A DNA stretch of 64,000 nt from Haladaptatus sp. QDMS2. Its GTDB lineage: Archaea; Halobacteriota; Halobacteria; Halobacteriales; Halococcaceae. The notes beneath the pieces are model-generated. The model saw nothing but the letters and a program-made list of their open reading frames with translations. It did no database searches and was not told the DNA's origin. Position 1 is the first letter of the stretch. Every line of letters begins with the position of its first letter. The DNA lies in NCBI RefSeq assembly GCF_029338295.1, contig NZ_CP119791.1, forward strand, positions 620,001 through 684,000, in the 5' to 3' direction. Shown here in pieces: positions 17,198-25,534 of the stretch. Both the position numbers and the translations under genes were made by a program.

Positions 17198-18244
17198 TTA
17201 CGCGTTCTCCCGGTCGACGTGAATTTCGTGGGCCTCCACGTCTTCTAACGCGGCGACCTGTCCGCCCACTTCGACGGGGCCGTCTGCGGTTTCGACCACG
17301 AGGTGTGCCGTCTTTCGGCTGTCTCCGAACGACGCTTCGACGACGGTTCCCTCGACGAGGCGGCTCTTCCCGGATTCGACGTCCCGGCCGCGAATCGTTG
17401 CGTAGAACGTCTCGTCGCGACCCAGCAGGTCGCTCACGCAGCGACGAATCGTGGCGTACCGGCGGGGGAAGGGCCGGTCTTCTGCCTGTTCAGCGACGGG
17501 TTCTGCCGTCGTCCACAGGAGCGTGTTGAAAAAGCCAGAGACGAGGAAGCCGAGTGCAGAGCGGTTGAAGATGACGCCGTAGCGGTCTGCGTCCTGCCCA
17601 TCGGTGAGCGCTTCGCGCGGGGCGTACACTGAATAGTTGCCGTCGGCGACGGCGATGATTGGCGTCGTGATGCCGCTTCGGGCCTGCACCGTCGTCGCCA
17701 CCGAATTGTAGTCGTAGGACTCCGCGCTCGGTAACTCGCGACTCGGTGAGAGTAGGAGGTCGATGGTGACGCCGTCGTCGATTTTCGCGGCGAGCGCGTC
17801 CTCGAACGTCGCGAGGAGGTCGGGCGAGAGCGAGAGGATGAGTTCGTATTCGGCCGTCTGAATGACGTCTTCGAGGTAGCGGTTTATCGTCGCGCTGGAT
17901 TTCACCAGTGACGCGGCCTCGGTCTGGCGTTTCGGCGCGGTATAGAGGTCTTCGAGGCCCGTCACGACGGATTCGAGCGAGGTGCGGTAGTCGGCAAACG
18001 CCTCTTCGGGGTCTATGGCGAGGACGCGAAGCGGTCTGGTCTCCTGGAGTTCGACCAGTCCGTGGTCGCTCAGCGTGCGGACGGTGTCGTAGACGCGTGG
18101 CTGGGGGATGTCCGTGTACTCAGAAATCTCCGACGCCGTCACCTCGCCGTGTTCGAGGATGGTGAGATACGCTCTCGTCTCGTACTCTCCGAAGGAGAAT
18201 CGCGAGGAAAGCGCCTCTAGCGAGCGATAGAGGTCCGTGGTCAT
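17198..18244 (-). CDS. TrmB-family transcriptional regulator
   Basis: A 348-residue DNA-binding regulator of the TrmB family, which controls sugar transport and metabolism in archaea. Residues about 8-75 are the winged helix-turn-helix (SRFSFGEYETRAYLTIL, then VTASEISEYTDIPQPRVYDTVRTL). The rest is the sugar-binding C-terminal domain, including the phospholipase D-like strand pattern LILSLSPDLLATF. TrmB proteins bind maltose, trehalose, glucose or phosphorylated sugars as effectors. The gene follows gfcR on the same strand, 62 bases downstream, next to the sugar cluster. A TTTAG box about 24 bases upstream of the ATG suggests it also has its own leaderless promoter. Confidence 0.9.
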   Translation of the reverse strand: MTTDLYRSLEALSSRFSFGEYETRAYLTILEHGEVTASEISEYTDIPQPRVYDTVRTLSDHGLVELQETRPLRVLAIDPEEAFADYRTSLESVVTGLEDLYTAPKRQTEAASLVKSSATINRYLEDVIQTAEYELILSLSPDLLATFEDALAAKIDDGVTIDLLLSPSRELPSAESYDYNSVATTVQARSGITTPIIAVADGNYSVYAPREALTDGQDADRYGVIFNRSALGFLVSGFFNTLLWTTAEPVAEQAEDRPFPRRYATIRRCVSDLLGRDETFYATIRGRDVESGKSRLVEGTVVEASFGDSRKTAHLVVETADGPVEVGGQVAALEDVEAHEIHVDRENA

Positions 18245-18306
18245 GCTATTGCGATGTTTTCGCGGCTAAATCAGTGTGTTCATTCGTGCCACGAGAGGGG
18301 TGCCGG

Positions 18307-18930
18307 CTATCGGTCTGCGACCGGAATGACCTCTACCAGCGAGTGGATTGGCACGTCAGCGATTTCCCCGACGCCTTCCTTGTCCACGAGGACGACGCCA
18401 GCGACGGGGGTGCCACCCGCCTCACGGACGGCCTCGATGGTCTCGCGCATCGTCGTCCCGCTCGTGATTGTGTCGTCGACGACGAAACAGCGTTCGCCTT
18501 CGACGGCGGTGAAGTTCCGTGAGAACGACCCGCTCGTCTCCGCCTCGTCGTCGTCCCACTGGTGTTTCGCCGGGGCGTAGGCGGCGAGCGACGTCTCCAG
18601 TTGTTGGGCGACGGCCGTTCCGAGGGGAACGCCGGCCTTTTCGATGCCCACCGTGACTGTGGCGTCCGCGGCCTCCGTGGCGAGGACGTTTGCCATCGCG
18701 GCGCTCACCTGCGATAGGCGGGTGTTGTGCTGGCCGATGGTGCTCCAGTCGACGTGCACGTCGTCCGCGCCGGTCGATTCTGGGGTTGGCTGCTCGTCGG
18801 TCGCACTTCGGGAGACGAGCCAACTGGCCGTCCGCCGCGAGACGTTCAGTTCGTCTGCGATTTCGCCCTTCGAGAGGCCGTTTTCGGTCAACTGCGCTGC
18901 GTTTTCGATGAGGTCGTCGATGTTCTTCAT
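18307..18930 (-). CDS. gfcR: GfcR-type transcriptional regulator with phosphoribosyltransferase-like domain
   Basis: About 207 residues. Residues 1-45 form a helix-turn-helix (LSKGEIADELNVSRRTASWLVS). The remainder is an orotate phosphoribosyltransferase-like domain whose PRPP-loop is CFVVDDTITSGTT (residues 148-160). This architecture is the haloarchaeal GfcR family. In Haloferax it activates glycolysis and Entner-Doudoroff genes in response to sugar, with the phosphoribosyltransferase fold probably acting as sensor. Its ATG overlaps the stop of gdh by four bases, so the two are translationally coupled; the gdh-gfcR adjacency also occurs in Haloferax. The ATG at 18930 starts exactly at the conserved N-terminus. 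Confidence 0.92.
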   Translation of the reverse strand: MKNIDDLIENAAQLTENGLSKGEIADELNVSRRTASWLVSRSATDEQPTPESTGADDVHVDWSTIGQHNTRLSQVSAAMANVLATEAADATVTVGIEKAGVPLGTAVAQQLETSLAAYAPAKHQWDDDEAETSGSFSRNFTAVEGERCFVVDDTITSGTTMRETIEAVREAGGTPVAGVVLVDKEGVGEIADVPIHSLVEVIPVADR

Positions 18931-19997
18931 AGCTGGTCGAATTCGATTGCGGTCTTGATGGTTCGTTCGTCGGTTCGGAAGGCCTTCTCGTACGAGTCGA
19001 GGTCGTACACGCCGGTGACGAGGTCTGAGCAGAACCACTCGGGGAGCGAATCGAGCGTCTCGGTTGCGGCTTCGAAGTGCTGACGGCCCGAGTTCACGCT
19101 TCCGACGAGCGCCTTGTTCTGGAGGACGAACTCGCGGTGAAGGTCGCTCCCGGCGACTTCGAAGTCCCAGCCGCCGGCGGGGACGCCGAGGAGCGCGCCG
19201 ACGCCGTTGGGCGCGAGCGCCTCGATGGTCTCGAAGGCGTGTTTGGCGTAGCCGGTCGCCTCGTAGACGAGGTCCATCGCCTCGTACGCGCGCGGAATCT
19301 CGGAAACTGGTGTCTCTCGCGAGTCGATGTAGGTCGCCCCCAGTTTCTCGATGATGTCGATAGTCGGGTCCGGCCGGTCGCGCTTGCCGAGGCAGTAGGT
19401 CGAATCGTAGTCAGAGAGCATCGCGAGCGTGAGCAGGCCGAGCGACCCATTCCCGAGGACGAGAGCGCTCTCCGGAGTCCATTCGAACGACGCGCGAGAC
19501 GCGGCGGCGAGTTCCAGCGCCTTCTCGGTGATGCTAATCGGTTCGACGAGGAAGCCAAATTCGGCGAGATGGTCGGGGATGGGAACGAGGTATTCGACGT
19601 GACTCGTGAAGTATTCGGCCATGAAGCCGTCGCCGCCGTCGATGCCGCGTTCTACGTACTCCCCGGGTGGGGCCATGTCGGCCTCGCCGCGGTCGAAGTA
19701 GGCGTTCGACTCGCCGACTGCGGGCGGGCGGCGCACGGTCGGGACCACCACGTCACCGGCCGAGAGGGCGGCGTCTTCGGGGGCCGTTTCGACCACGCCG
19801 ACGGCCTCGTGGCCGAGGACGAGCGAATCGGCTCCGGCCGGGAAGCCGCCGTGGCCACCGCTCAGCACCTCATGGTCGGTGCCGTCTACGCCCACGCGGA
19901 GGGTCCGGACGAGTGCCTCGCCGGGCCCAGCCTCCGGTTTTGGCCGCTCTACCAGCCTCGGTCGTTGTTCCCCTTTGCGAACGGCGATGGCGTGCAT
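18927..19997 (-). CDS. gdh: glucose 1-dehydrogenase (Zn-dependent, MDR family)
   Basis: A 356-residue cytoplasmic enzyme oxidising glucose to gluconolactone with NAD(P)+, the first step of the archaeal Entner-Doudoroff route. It closely follows the known Haloferax enzyme: TLRVGVDGTDHEV (catalytic region), GGHGGFP, LVLGHEAVGVVE (zinc-ligand His), VPTVRRPP and the Rossmann segment VLGNGSLGLLTLAM. The conserved C-terminal KALVGSVNSGRQHFEAA is also present. ATG at 19997 gives the family N-terminus MHAIAVRKGE. A TATA-like AAAATATT lies about 28 bases upstream. It is the first gene of a gdh-gfcR-trmB set divergent from the gluconate branch. Confidence 0.95.
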   Translation of the reverse strand: MHAIAVRKGEQRPRLVERPKPEAGPGEALVRTLRVGVDGTDHEVLSGGHGGFPAGADSLVLGHEAVGVVETAPEDAALSAGDVVVPTVRRPPAVGESNAYFDRGEADMAPPGEYVERGIDGGDGFMAEYFTSHVEYLVPIPDHLAEFGFLVEPISITEKALELAAASRASFEWTPESALVLGNGSLGLLTLAMLSDYDSTYCLGKRDRPDPTIDIIEKLGATYIDSRETPVSEIPRAYEAMDLVYEATGYAKHAFETIEALAPNGVGALLGVPAGGWDFEVAGSDLHREFVLQNKALVGSVNSGRQHFEAATETLDSLPEWFCSDLVTGVYDLDSYEKAFRTDERTIKTAIEFDQL

Positions 19998-20022
19998 GGG
20001 AACGTGTAGGACCCCCAGGGAT

Positions 20023-20054
20023 AAAATATTTATTCTATTCCGAGTAAGTATTTT
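20023..20054. promoter_or_regulatory. AT-rich inverted repeat between divergent Entner-Doudoroff operons
   Basis: AAAATATTTA (20023-20032) and TAAGTATTTT (20045-20054) are inverted copies with one mismatch in ten, separated by 12 bases. The left arm overlaps the TATA-like box of gdh. The right arm lies about 40 bases upstream of the TATA box of the opposite operon. The symmetry and position suggest a regulator site, with GfcR or the TrmB protein as obvious candidates; that link is inference. Confidence 0.45.
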
Positions 20055-20092
20055 CCACGCCGAAAGCTGGATGATGGCGACAACCGTGCGCC

Positions 20093-20098
20093 TATATA
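20093..20098 (+). promoter_or_regulatory. TATA box of the aldolase-dehydratase-kinase operon
   Basis: TATATA lies in GC-rich context. The predicted transcript start (about 26 bases downstream, near 20122) falls after the ATG at 20115, so translation more likely begins at 20151. That ATG has GGAG about nine bases before it. Confidence 0.55.
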
Positions 20099-20150
20099 GC
20101 ACGACACAGAACTCATGACAGACCATCGACCGCACGCCGGAGATTTACAA

Positions 20151-21371
20151 ATGGAACGCTACGACAGACTGTACGACCTCTACGACCGCGTCGATACCGC
20201 GACCCTGCGGGCCTATCAGGAGTTCGTCGACCTGTTCCCGATGGTCGATTCGATGGTCGCCCTCGAATACTGGGAGGAGGCCCAGGAGGAACTCACTGAC
20301 CGGAAATCGAAGATTAGCGAGACGTATCCCGAGGGTGAAACCTTCGCGGAAATCGCCGCCTACGCAGAGCGCGAACAGGCGTTTACCGCCCTCGACCTCT
20401 TCAACAAGTACGAACGCGGCGTGAACGTACTCGTCCTCGACGTAGACGAGACGCTCCGCAGCGCGGGCGAGACGGACAACGAGATTCCCCGCGAAACGCT
20501 CCACGTGCTCACCGAGTTCTACGAACGCGGCGTCCCCATCGTCATCTGCACGGGCCAGACCTTAGAGAACGTGAAAGGATTCATGATCCAGGGTCTGGGC
20601 AACGAACTCGTCCACTCGGGCGATTTCAGCATCGTCTACGAGGGCGGCACGGGCGTCTTCACGCCGGGCCACGGGGCGGACACGAAGCAGTTGCTGTACG
20701 AGGATTTAGACGCAGCCATCACCAGCGTGTTCGACGAGGTTCTCACCCGAGTGCTGCCCGAGGCCCCAGAGCGGCTCCGGCGTGGTTGTCACCTGCAGGG
20801 CAACGAGTTCAACGTCACCCTCAAACCGAACTACGACATCGGGAGCGACCAGGCCGTCGAAATCATCGACGAGGCACTCGTCTACCTGCTCGACCTGCTC
20901 GGAGAGGCGACGGCTGGCGAGGCGGGCAGCGAGTGGGCACGTGCCTACTACGCCGACGCCGACCCGGAGATTCACGAGGTGCTCGCCGCCCACGACGCAC
21001 TCGTCGAGAGAGACCCGGCGGATGCCCCCGCCGAGGTGCGCGAAACGCTCGACCGAATCGACGTCGGTTACTACGAGGGCGACGCCGTCGAAATCGTGAG
21101 CCGCGAGCTGAACAAGGTAACCGGTGTCCGCGCCGCCTTCGACGTGCTCTCGGTGGACGACCCGTTCGCCCTCGTGATGGGCGACAGCAAGAGCGACCTC
21201 CGGGTGATGGAGTGGGTGGCAGACAACGACTGTGGCATCGCCGCCGCACCCGAACACGCCTCAGAGCGCGTTCTCGACCACGTTAGGCAAACGGACGAAC
21301 TCGTCTTCCCCGAAGGCGTCGCCGGCGACATCCTCTGGACCGTCCACGCACTGAACCGACTCGCAGCGTAA
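20151..21371 (+). CDS. HAD-superfamily hydrolase in the Entner-Doudoroff cluster
   Basis: About 406 residues, a likely phosphatase. An N-terminal extension of about 85 residues (helical, no known domain) precedes HAD motif I (VLVLDVDETLR, with both Asp). Motif II is VICTGQT, motif III the Lys in ELNKVTGV, and motif IV the Asp-rich VMGDSKSDLRVMEW. A large cap insert between them (about residues 150-310) places it nearest the sugar-phosphatase (Cof/IIB-like) HADs. Its position, 12 bases before the aldolase gene in an operon for glucose oxidation, suggests a sugar- or sugar-acid phosphate substrate; this is inference. ATG at 20115 is an alternative, but the TATA box at 20093 argues for 20151. 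Confidence 0.78.
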   Translation: MERYDRLYDLYDRVDTATLRAYQEFVDLFPMVDSMVALEYWEEAQEELTDRKSKISETYPEGETFAEIAAYAEREQAFTALDLFNKYERGVNVLVLDVDETLRSAGETDNEIPRETLHVLTEFYERGVPIVICTGQTLENVKGFMIQGLGNELVHSGDFSIVYEGGTGVFTPGHGADTKQLLYEDLDAAITSVFDEVLTRVLPEAPERLRRGCHLQGNEFNVTLKPNYDIGSDQAVEIIDEALVYLLDLLGEATAGEAGSEWARAYYADADPEIHEVLAAHDALVERDPADAPAEVRETLDRIDVGYYEGDAVEIVSRELNKVTGVRAAFDVLSVDDPFALVMGDSKSDLRVMEWVADNDCGIAAAPEHASERVLDHVRQTDELVFPEGVAGDILWTVHALNRLAA

Positions 21372-21383
21372 CCGACCGATACC

Positions 21384-22298
21384 ATGCACGAACACGAACG
21401 ACGAACCGAATCAGGAGACCCACTGGGCCTCCACGGGGTCGTACCACCGACGGTCACGGCCTTCCACGACGACGAATCGCTCGACGAACAGACAACTGCC
21501 GCCCACGCCCGCTACGTCGTCGACCGCGGCGCACACGGCGTGTTCCCTCTCGGGACGAACGGCGAGTTCCCGCTGCTCACTCCCGACGAACGGGAACGGG
21601 CGCTCGACGCCGTCGTCACGGAAGTCGGCGGCGACGTGCCGGTCATCGCAGGCGTCGGCGCACCGAGCACCCGCGAAACCGTCCAGAACGCCCGGGCGGC
21701 CGCGGATGTGGGCACAGACGCCCTCGTCGTCGTCACGCCCTTCTACTTCCCGCTCGACCACGACGCGGCGGTGACCCACTACCGACGAGTCGCAGAAGCC
21801 ACCGACCTCCCGGTGTACATCTACCACATCCCCGGGCGGACCGGAAACGCGCTGTCGCTCGACACCCTCGCCGACCTCGCGTCCATCGAGAACGTCGCCG
21901 GCCTCAAGGATTCGAGCAAGGACGTGCCGTGGCTCACGCAGGCCATCGACGCGAACCCGAACCTCACGTTCTTCGTCGGGTCTGACTCCCTGCTGTTCTC
22001 GGGGCTCTCACTGGGCTGCCACGGGATGGTGAGCGCCGTGGCGAACGTCTTCCCGGAACTCGTCTGCGACCTCTACGACGCCCACGAAGCGGGCGACCTG
22101 TCCCGGTCGCGCGACCTCCAGCGCACCGTCTTCGGCGTCCGGCGGGCGCTCAAGTCCGGCCCGTACATGGCGGGCGTAAAGACGGCCCTCCGCCTTCGCG
22201 GCTTCGACGCCGGGCCGCTTCGCTCGCCGCTTCGCACCATGGACGACGCCCAGCAGGCGTCGCTCGAATCGAAACTTTCCGAACTCGAACTGCTGTAA
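21384..22298 (+). CDS. DapA-family aldolase, likely KDG/KDPG aldolase
   Basis: A 304-residue TIM-barrel class I aldolase of the dihydrodipicolinate synthase/N-acetylneuraminate lyase family. The Schiff-base Lys is Lys175 in AGLKDSSKD, and the proton-relay Tyr is Tyr147 in VYIYHIPGRTG. The N-terminal GTNGEFPLLT is the carboxylate-binding loop. Its place between a HAD hydrolase and gluconate dehydratase plus KDG kinase points to cleavage of 2-keto-3-deoxy-(6-phospho)gluconate into pyruvate and (phospho)glyceraldehyde. Haloarchaeal KDPG aldolases belong to this family. No lysine-synthesis genes are nearby, so a DapA role is unlikely. Confidence 0.85.
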   Translation: MHEHERRTESGDPLGLHGVVPPTVTAFHDDESLDEQTTAAHARYVVDRGAHGVFPLGTNGEFPLLTPDERERALDAVVTEVGGDVPVIAGVGAPSTRETVQNARAAADVGTDALVVVTPFYFPLDHDAAVTHYRRVAEATDLPVYIYHIPGRTGNALSLDTLADLASIENVAGLKDSSKDVPWLTQAIDANPNLTFFVGSDSLLFSGLSLGCHGMVSAVANVFPELVCDLYDAHEAGDLSRSRDLQRTVFGVRRALKSGPYMAGVKTALRLRGFDAGPLRSPLRTMDDAQQASLESKLSELELL

Positions 22299-22307
22299 CC
22301 GAGACAA

Positions 22308-23543
22308 ATGACACGAGACTACGCAACACTGCACGACCCGAACTCAGAATACACGATGCGCGAACTCTCATCGGCGACGATGGGGCTCGCGAACGACCGC
22401 GGCCCGCGCGACGTCGAAATCACGGACGTTCAGACCACGATGGTCGACGGCAACTTCCCGTGGACGCTCGTCCGCATCTACACCGACGCGGGCGTCGTCG
22501 GCACGGGCGAAGCTTACTGGGGCGCGGGCGTCCCCGAACTCGTCGAACGCATGACGCCGTTCGTCGTTGGCGAGAACCCACTCGACATCGACCGCCTCTT
22601 CGAGCATCTCGTCCAGAAGATGTCTGGCGAAGGGTCGCTCAGCGGCGTGACCGTCACTGCCATCTCCGGCATCGAAATCGCCCTGCACGACCTCGCGGGC
22701 AAACTGCTCGACGTGCCAGCCTACCAGTTGCTCGGCGGCAAGTACCGCGACGAAGTGCGCGTCTACTGTGATTGCCACGCGGGCGACGAGAGCGAACCCG
22801 AGAGCAACGCCGCGGAGGCAGAACGCGTCGTCGACGAACTCGGATACGACGCGCTGAAGTTCGACCTCGACGTGCCCTCCGGCCACGAGAAAGACCGCGC
22901 GAACCGCCACCTTCGCGGGCCGGAAGTCGAGCACAAGGCCGAAATCGTCCGTGCCGTGACCGAGCGAATCGGCGACCGCGCCGATGTGGCCTTCGACTGC
23001 CACTGGACGTTCTCGGGCGGGAGCGCAAAGCGCCTCGCTCGCGCCGTCGAGGACTGCGACATCTGGTGGCTCGAAGACCCCGTCCCACCGGAGAACCACG
23101 ACGTCCAGCGCGAAGTCACCCAGTCCACGACGACGCCAATCGCCGCCGGCGAGAACGTCTACCGCAAGCACGGCCACCGCCGACTCTTAGAGGAGCAGGC
23201 GGTGGACATCATCGCCCCCGACCTGCCGAAGGTTGGCGGGATGCGCGAAACGCGGAAGATTGCGGACATGGCCGACACCTACTACGTGCCCGTCGCCATG
23301 CACAACGTCTCCTCGCCCGTCGCGACGATGGCGAGCGCGCAGGTCGGGGCGGCCATCCCGAACTCGCTGGCCGTCGAGTTCCACTCCTACCAGCTCGGCT
23401 GGTGGTCGGACCTCGTCGAGGAGACGGTCATCAGCGACGGCCGCATCGAGATTCCAGAACGACCCGGCCTCGGCCTCACCCTCGACCTCGATACCGTCGA
23501 GGAACACATGGTCGAGGGTGAGACCCTCTTCGACGAAGCATGA
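22308..23543 (+). CDS. gad: D-gluconate dehydratase
   Basis: A 411-residue enolase-superfamily enzyme that dehydrates gluconate to 2-keto-3-deoxygluconate, the second step of the pathway. An N-terminal capping domain ([22 protein letters not shown]) precedes the barrel. Catalytic and metal residues are visible: Lys in [10 protein letters not shown], Asp in VAFDCHW, Glu in WWLEDPVPP, Glu in PIAAGENV and His in VAMHNVSSP. The sequence closely resembles characterised haloarchaeal gluconate dehydratase. It starts nine bases after the aldolase and overlaps the KDG kinase by four bases. A start at 22356 ([10 protein letters not shown]) would also keep the whole conserved region. Confidence 0.92.
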
Positions 23544-24499
23544 GCGACCTCGTGACGTTCGGCGAGACGATGCTCCGTCTCTCACCGACGCCCGGCGACC
23601 GCCTCGAAACCGCAGACTCGCTCGACATGCGAATCGGCGGCGCAGAGAGCAACGTCGCCGTGACGGCCCAGCGCCTCGGCCTGGATTCGACGTGGCAGTC
23701 CGGACTCCCGGACTCCCCGCTCGGCCGGCGAGTCGTCAACGAGTTGCGCCAGCACGGCCTCGCCGTGGACATCTCGTGGCAGACCAGCGAGGCTGCGAGA
23801 CAGGGTCTTTACTTCATCGAACCCGGCGGCGCACCTCGCGGCACGGACGTCATCTACGACCGCAAAAACGCCGCCGTGACCACGGTGACGACGGACGACA
23901 TCGACGTAGACAGTATCCGTGGGGCGAAGGCGTTCTACACGAGCGGTATCACGCCAGCGCTCTCGGACACCCTGCGTGAGACCACCGCCGAACTGCTCGA
24001 CGCCGCACAGGCGGCGAACACGACGACGGCGTTCGACCTGAACTACCGGTCGAAACTCTGGACGCCCGCAGAAGCGAAGGAGGCGTTCGACGACCTCCTC
24101 CCGAAAGTGGACGTGCTCGTCGCGGCAAAACGCGATGCGGCGACCGTCCTCGGGTTCGAGGGTGATGCAGAAACCGTCGCCCGCGACCTTACAGCGGCGT
24201 ACGATTTCGAGACGGTCGTGGTCACCCGCGGCGAGGAGGGCGCACTCGCCATCGCAGACGGCGAGGTTTTCGAACAACCCGTCTACGAGGCGGACACGCT
24301 CGACCCAATCGGGACGGGCGACGCCTTCGTCGGCGGCCTGCTCACGAAACTCGTCGAAGGCGAGTCGGTAGCAGGCGGCCTCGCGTTCGGGGCGGCCGCC
24401 GCGGCGCTCAAACGAACCATCAGCGGAGACGTGGCCGCCATCACCCGCGCCGAGGTCGAACGCGTCATCGACGCGGGTGCGGCGGACATCTCTCGATAA
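23540..24499 (+). CDS. kdgK: 2-keto-3-deoxygluconate kinase (PfkB family)
   Basis: A 319-residue ribokinase-fold kinase. The N-terminal substrate motif is [18 protein letters not shown], and the C-terminal catalytic motif [12 protein letters not shown] holds the base Asp and anion hole. [10 protein letters not shown] near residue 150 is typical of KDG kinases. It phosphorylates 2-keto-3-deoxygluconate to KDPG, the step that defines the semi-phosphorylative branch. Its ATG lies inside the gad stop (ATGA), so the two are translationally coupled. The stop is one base from the stop of the convergent aldo/keto reductase. Confidence 0.92.
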
Positions 24500-25484: not shown

Positions 25485-25534
25485 ACAAATTACACTACTC
25501 TTGGACGAGTAAAAATTATAGGTTACTTCTGCTG

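Follow-up and report, generated by a model that had tools for sequence, protein, structure and literature searches.

A haloarchaeal HAD-IIB phosphatase-like gene family linked to hexose catabolism and the regulator gene gfcR

The HAD gene and its locus

The window analyzed here, a 64-kb stretch of the Haladaptatus sp. QDMS2 genome, carries a plus-strand gene at 20151–21371 for a HAD-IIB phosphatase-like protein of 406 amino acids, which scores 44.5 bits with the Pfam family Hydrolase_3 (PF08282; cut-off 20.9). The open frame runs from 20115 to 21371, where the stop codon ends. The ATG at 20151 is likely the true start because the methionine at this position is invariant in all 49 rows of an alignment of homologues (A1); a few divergent homologues outside A1 begin some residues earlier (e.g., at loci L115, L118, and L128). 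Nearly all of the matches listed (about 150 and 80) are full length, with about 65–75% identity, and some of the 295 genomes with a match hold it in partial or split form (e.g., G044 and G008). Judged from sequence conservation, the gene is beyond doubt real and highly conserved in salt-loving archaea.

The HAD gene is the first in a tight run of four genes, separated from the next by a gap of 12 nt, as the sequence-only reading had described for a HAD gene heading an operon; the remaining junctions are a 9-nt gap and a 4-nt overlap. The second gene (21384–22298, plus strand, with its ATG at 21384) encodes a DHDPS-family aldolase, a candidate KD(P)G aldolase that scores 237.7 bits with PF00701 and falls under the cut-offs of all seven NCBIfam models matched. 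It is followed by a gluconate/galactonate dehydratase-like gene of the MR_MLE type (gad; 22308–23543, plus strand), with 216 bits for PF13378 and its best NCBIfam models, NF010624 and NF040790, both under cut-off, and by a KDG/KDGal kinase gene (kdgK; 23540–24499, plus strand) that reaches 509.5 bits with NF041332 against a cut-off of 440. Three minus-strand genes lie divergent to this run. The nearest is a glucose dehydrogenase gene (gdh; 18927–19997), for which the start is taken as the ATG at 19997 and the frame at 18927–20018 scores 307 bits with PF16912. Beyond it are gfcR (18307–18930), for a regulator of sugar catabolism with a PRTase domain (NF045507, 310.2 bits against 300), and trmB (17198–18244), for a sugar-sensing regulator (NF047392, 548.8 bits against 500); both regulators are above curated cut-offs. 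The window is therefore home to most of the upper semi-phosphorylative Entner–Doudoroff pathway together with two sugar regulators. A palindromic TrmB-like site was also seen at 25496, upstream of an aldo-keto reductase gene that stands ahead of a PfkB kinase gene.

The intergenic region between gdh and the HAD gene contains a TrmB-like operator, TATTN7GAGTA, at 20031–20046 (unstranded), the sole match in 64 kb where 0.04 are expected, as well as a putative TATA-like box (CTATATAG, 20092–20099, plus strand) read from the sequence upstream of the HAD gene. The operator resembles the TrmB site known for Halobacterium. Among the best 80 of 189 HAD loci, the form TA[CT]TN7GAGTA occurs in 24 of the 32 loci with a divergent gdh and in none of the 48 without one. 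When up to one mismatch is allowed, with a spacer of 7 or 8 on either strand, 40 of 110 loci (some genomes being counted twice) have a site, compared with 4.3 in mononucleotide shuffles. The operator, some 105 bp ahead of the HAD gene, was dropped as an element of that gene alone; since it follows gdh across loci, it is assigned to gdh or to both gdh and the HAD gene. Binding of the gdh promoter by TrmB is described for Haloarcula hispanica in PMC10817205.

Both further genomes sampled from the window's genus (G070 and G125) have gfcR and, at the limits used, lack the HAD gene, the KDG kinase gene, and gad. In a quick tree, the HAD protein of the window sits on a long branch with Halobacteriaceae (SH-aLRT 94), away from the relatives of Halococcus type that belong to the window's own family. 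These absences and the tree placement point to a possible horizontal gain of the cluster (17198–24499).

Protein architecture and family assignment

All of the HAD motifs noticed in the sequence-only reading hold up across homologues, and so do the N-terminal extension, put there at 85 residues, and the large cap. With the motifs as generally defined for HAD proteins, motif I spans residues 97–101 (DVDET; 20439–20453) with the aspartates D97 and D99, motif II supplies T134 (20550–20552), and motif III supplies K322 (21114–21116), all on the plus strand and all invariant in 49 homologues. In motif IV, residues 344–349 (GDSKSD; 21180–21197, plus strand), five of six positions are invariant and S348 is nearly so. 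The catalytic set of D97, D99, T134, K322, D345, and D349 is unchanged in every row of A1.

The N-terminal extension is predicted to form a helical domain of about 88 residues (1–88; 20151–20414, plus strand). Five helices appear in the model of the whole protein and again when the domain is folded alone, with a pLDDT of 85 for the best and 54 for the worst of five models. The domain is conserved. Searched alone against the PDB, it gave no Foldseek match at E ≤ 0.001 (best E 2.2), and a second structure comparison ranked by Z gave a best Z of 5.0. As modeled, the domain is a helical bundle without a confident PDB match, which does not by itself prove a new fold.

The remainder of the protein is predicted to comprise a HAD core and a C2B-type cap (residues 93–406; 20427–21368, plus strand). 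In the AlphaFold model (mean pLDDT 88.5, pTM 0.80), residues from about 88 to 406 align to HAD-IIB enzymes with Z up to 19.2; ranked by Z, its top neighbors all belong to HAD-IIB and include several sugar phosphatases, and YidA is ranked first by Foldseek. The cap region is large, with 188 residues from T134 to K322 and an insertion of variable length after residue 256. Its residues H214–N221, K225–N227, Y307/Y308, and D311 are very strongly conserved in A1. On this model the fold is that of HAD-IIB with a C2B cap, and the closest structures are those of sugar phosphatases, among them TM0651 (1nf2, Z 19.2) and YidA (1rkq, Z 18.9). With these two, the BT4131-type enzyme (1ymq), and PfHAD1 (4zev), the protein has in common the fold and cap class (Z about 17–19) and the four HAD motifs at only 17–20% identity. 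It differs from them in its 88-residue helical domain, the variable cap insertion, a score under the cut-off of the Cof subfamily model TIGR00099 (51 against 137 bits), a range confined to haloarchaea in the phylum sample, and its tie to sugar-catabolism genes. The archaeal phosphoglycolate phosphatase–type HADs TA0175 (1kyt, Z 16.8) and PH1421 (1wr8, Z 18.2) also have the HAD-IIB fold, but their chains of 225–231 amino acids leave no room for the N-terminal domain.

For the first A1 member, to which the comparisons of NCBIfam scores with cut-offs refer, the HAD-IIB model TIGR01484 gives 41.4 bits, just under its cut-off of 41.8, the NCBIfam sugar-phosphatase models stay far under their cut-offs, and so do the phosphoglycolate phosphatase models NF002245 (34.5 bits; cut-off 198) and TIGR01487 (22.4 bits; cut-off 122.75). 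At E ≤ 0.001, the HAD-IIB, Cof, and NF002245 models are matched by all 49 A1 members. Among Pfam families, S6PP was also matched, under its cut-off, and among phage families there was a single weak match (phrog_4901, 33.4 bits).

The fold and class are known, and the family is apparently undescribed. A search of the open-access literature turned up neither the family nor its N-terminal domain nor the link to the regulator, and nothing for the tags HVO_1489 to HVO_1493, picked by presumed gene order. The HAD gene is not described in the available portions of PMC10817205, PMC8305020, PMC11519228, PMC6801745, PMC12607858, PMC3102087, and PMC9700705, and the available text of PMC3102087, on the haloarchaeal pathway, names no HAD step.

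Distribution and gene neighborhood

Matches to the HAD protein were found in 295 of 391 Halobacteria genomes (E ≤ 1e-10). In a sample of 294 genomes covering this phylum, 36 match the family profile, and all are in the window's order (36/53 there, 0/241 outside, as read from a kinship-sorted listing). The family has so far been found only in haloarchaea within this phylum sample. The five matching plasmid records in PLSDB are all haloarchaeal, one of them covering only 20% of the query.

A tie between the HAD gene and the pathway, drawn from one locus in the sequence-only reading, is supported by these genomes. A KDG kinase (NF041332) is found in 274/295 HAD-positive and 53/96 HAD-negative genomes, counts that leave out 16 genomes with a best E between 1e-110 and 1e-90, and gfcR is found in 290/295 and 59/96, respectively. 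Seventeen of the 21 kinase-less HAD-positive genomes have gad, as do 5 of the 43 genomes lacking both the HAD gene and the kinase and 13 of the 14 HAD-negative, kinase-positive genomes searched for it. Homologues scattered without the pathway were looked for, and the pattern is otherwise: KDG kinase or gad occurs in 291 of the 295 HAD-positive and in 58 of the 96 HAD-negative genomes, with G253, G256, G304, and G069 the only HAD-positive genomes having neither a strong kinase match nor gad. The Fisher tests of co-occurrence treat genomes as independent even though they are related. In family f1, eight genomes (G044, G073, G157, G209, G236, G250, G324, and G340) have the HAD gene and gad, the gad match in G340 being partial, with no NF041332 kinase at E ≤ 1e-90; the pathway in these genomes probably relies on another sugar kinase.

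The same counts show that the HAD gene is dispensable, in that many genomes keep the pathway without it. Because 58 of the 96 HAD-negative genomes retain KDG kinase or gad, its function appears to be optional and accessory and not a missing step. The sequence-only reading thus stands as to the pathway link and needs qualifying as to necessity, since the HAD gene is often dispensable (53 of the HAD-negative genomes have KDG kinase and five more have gad). Halorubrum offers a close view. Seven of the eight HAD-less genomes checked in genus g8, which we take to be Halorubrum, have gad. At two HAD-less loci (L143 and L149), purD, a DUF255 gene, and a FAD-binding oxidoreductase gene are followed by gad; at L141 and L142 the same trio precedes a located gad over which the gene caller had placed an opposite-strand ORF. 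In Halorubrum rubrum (L094 and L152, one genome), the HAD gene occupies the slot between purD and the oxidoreductase gene. These loci read as loss, or gain, of the HAD gene without harm to the pathway gene.

The most constant physical neighbor is gfcR. Among the best 80 of 189 loci, the basis of every count out of 80 here, gfcR is near the HAD gene in 65, gdh in 36, the aldolase gene in 30, gad in 26, and kdgK in 1. Under stricter limits of ~6 kb, 72/80 have at least one of these five genes, and in 62/80 gfcR is found upstream of the HAD gene, on the opposite strand. An aldolase gene or gad is found downstream on the same strand in 40/80, only eight of these being within 200 nt. The eight loci without a pathway neighbor are L048, L059, L060 (a 5.1-kb contig), L072, L096, L106, L108, and L109, the last two having a gfcR match at 48% under looser limits. 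A further 20 loci, mostly one per genus, divide into 14 with a pathway neighbor and 6 without; kdgK is near the HAD gene in one (L126, 53% identity), and a 36% match in L125 is taken as a paralogue. A survey of co-occurrence with gad and kdgK, the check proposed in the sequence-only reading, thus comes out positive at the level of genomes and not for physical proximity of kdgK, which was ruled out as a conserved neighbor.

Arrangements vary. Some loci have gfcR and gdh divergent from the HAD gene, some gfcR alone, and in L107 the HAD gene faces gfcR; in Halococcus (L097) the order is aldolase, HAD, gad, and in Halorubrum (L094) the HAD gene is near gad. Genus g24, presumably Haloferax by its gene order, has the HAD gene between gad and genes for class II FBA and a fructose PTS (L112 and L113). 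Neighborhoods of the fructose PTS/class II FBA kind are seen beside the HAD gene in L112, L113, L119, and L121, with FBA confirmed in L112 and PTS enzyme I in a relative, L119. Because the HAD gene also stands beside fructose genes, its substrate need not be gluconate-specific. A second HAD copy in Natronococcus sp. A-GB7 (L048:5049–8948) is flanked by an HpcH/HpaI aldolase gene and a convergent pair encoding FBPase and a DeoC/LacD aldolase.

Other genes recur at these loci. In 28/80 loci, mostly of Natrialbaceae, members of a BAT/HTH_10 regulator family are encoded downstream of the HAD gene (e.g., L063:7375–8148). A small protein family is found in 11/80 (e.g., L040:7993–8289, 98 amino acids) and in L032 and L040 is encoded on the opposite strand between the HAD and aldolase genes. 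A DUF5799 gene adjoins the HAD gene in L119.

Proposed function and alternatives

These findings speak for a phosphatase of small molecules that is catalytically competent and has a tie to hexose catabolism and the activator of that catabolism. Tentatively, and short of calling it probable, we favor a HAD-IIB phosphatase of a phosphorylated intermediate of hexose catabolism, with KDPG as first candidate, that would drain this intermediate and perhaps lower the inducer of GfcR. Confidence differs among the parts of this reading, being strong for phosphatase activity, moderate for a hexose-derived substrate, weak to moderate for KDPG as that substrate, and weak for an effect on GfcR. KDPG is placed first because it is the sole hexose-derived phosphate before cleavage in the glucose branch. 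Fructose-1-phosphate (F1P), which enters through the fructose gene contexts, or a hexose-6-phosphate come next.

In the proposed mechanism, the C2B cap would close over the sugar, a metal would be held by the acidic residues of motifs I and IV, and the phosphate ester would be attacked with D97 as nucleophile and D99 as acid/base, together with T134 and K322. When the lower pathway is slow, the enzyme may drain the intermediate and so limit the build-up of sugar phosphates. Pathway intermediates are said to have been recognized as inducers of GfcR by Johnsen and colleagues in 2023. Since GfcR responds to such intermediates, draining them would damp the pathway's own induction. GfcR activates genes for glucose and fructose degradation according to PMC11519228, and the title of PMC5489143 gives a bacterial precedent for KDPG as a regulatory ligand. 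Against the KDPG reading, a KDPG phosphatase working beside a KDG kinase would, unless controlled, set up a futile cycle.

A different entry point for the enzyme is unlikely but deserves weighing. The haloarchaeal pathway begins from free glucose at glucose dehydrogenase, and a hexose-6-phosphate (G6P/F6P) phosphatase could free glucose from trehalose, glycogen, or gluconeogenic hexose phosphate for entry there. Among the best 80 of 189 loci, 32 have the HAD gene divergent to gdh within 400 bp, and the TrmB-like operator stands between the two genes in 24 of them; one HAD copy adjoins the genes for FBPase and DeoC/LacD aldolase; and YidA and PfHAD1, listed as (sugar) phosphatases, are among the structural neighbors. 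However, adjacency to the aldolase gene and gad as well as to gdh fits an intermediate further down equally well, the need for a phosphatase at this point is undocumented, and the operator goes with gdh and not with the HAD gene.

Rather unlikely is a role as off-switch partner of GfcR, in which the enzyme would chiefly destroy the sugar-phosphate inducer (KDPG, F1P) that GfcR senses. In most loci examined, gfcR stands close to the HAD gene, usually upstream on the opposite strand. If this role were true, the protein would end a signal in archaeal central metabolism by erasing the metabolite that carries it.

Promiscuity is frequent among HAD-IIB enzymes, and the lack of the gene in many genomes with the pathway suits a repair role, so a broad house-cleaning phosphatase could be imagined. 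It would act not on a true intermediate but on sugar phosphates that are damaged or that KDG kinase, aldolase, or 1-PFK release as side products through their own promiscuity. The very strong conservation of cap residues suggests one definite ligand instead, which leaves this explanation improbable. A haloarchaeal HAD predicted from context was then shown to be a strictly specific RuBP phosphatase in PMC9700705 (Halxa_2271/VNG_1202C), which further argues against promiscuity. That protein is likewise a haloarchaeal HAD whose role was first deduced from neighborhood and co-occurrence. As the same paper describes it, its gene is paired with fucA and present in 17 of 63 halophiles, a context and distribution that differ from those of the present gene, found with gfcR, gdh, and gad and present in 295 of 391 genomes.

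The rank of gfcR as commonest neighbor (65 of the best 80 of 189 loci) and a conserved N-terminal domain lacking a confident PDB relative would also suit a protein phosphatase or a noncatalytic regulator that acts on GfcR or pathway enzymes through the helical domain. C2B-capped HADs as a rule act on small molecules and the catalytic residues are kept, so such a role is very unlikely.

Two identities unconnected with the locus were rejected. A trehalose-6-phosphate or phosphoglycolate phosphatase placed here by chance is highly improbable: T6PP structures align at Z of about 15–16.5 and NF002245 is weakly matched, yet the protein is far under the phosphoglycolate cut-offs and gives no TIGR00685 (trehalose-6-phosphate phosphatase) match up to E 0.1, and the genome encodes elsewhere a dedicated T6PP (166.5 bits, above cut-off) and a separate phosphoglycolate phosphatase–like protein in a 230-amino-acid frame (178 bits, just below the cut-off of 198). 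A nucleotidase resembling the Plasmodium IMP-nucleotidase (6rmd and others), unrelated to sugar, can be set aside as extremely unlikely, since these HAD chains of similar length fill 18 of the 50 Foldseek rows shown, at ranks 3 and lower (best E 1.3e-8), but have TM of only 0.35–0.43, and are missing from the 50 rows ranked by Z and from the Foldseek list for the N-terminal domain alone. No nucleotidase family is among the Pfam or NCBIfam matches, and the gene context is one of sugar catabolism.

Although the enzymes of haloarchaeal glucose breakdown have been mapped one by one, no assigned role was found for this widespread HAD. The family is sharply defined, and it is absent from enough pathway-positive genomes to provide a natural comparison. 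Should the enzyme hydrolyze KDPG or F1P, the haloarchaeal pathway would gain a reaction, and the switching-off of GfcR would become directly accessible. The HAD protein may serve as a safety valve or an off-signal for glucose breakdown.
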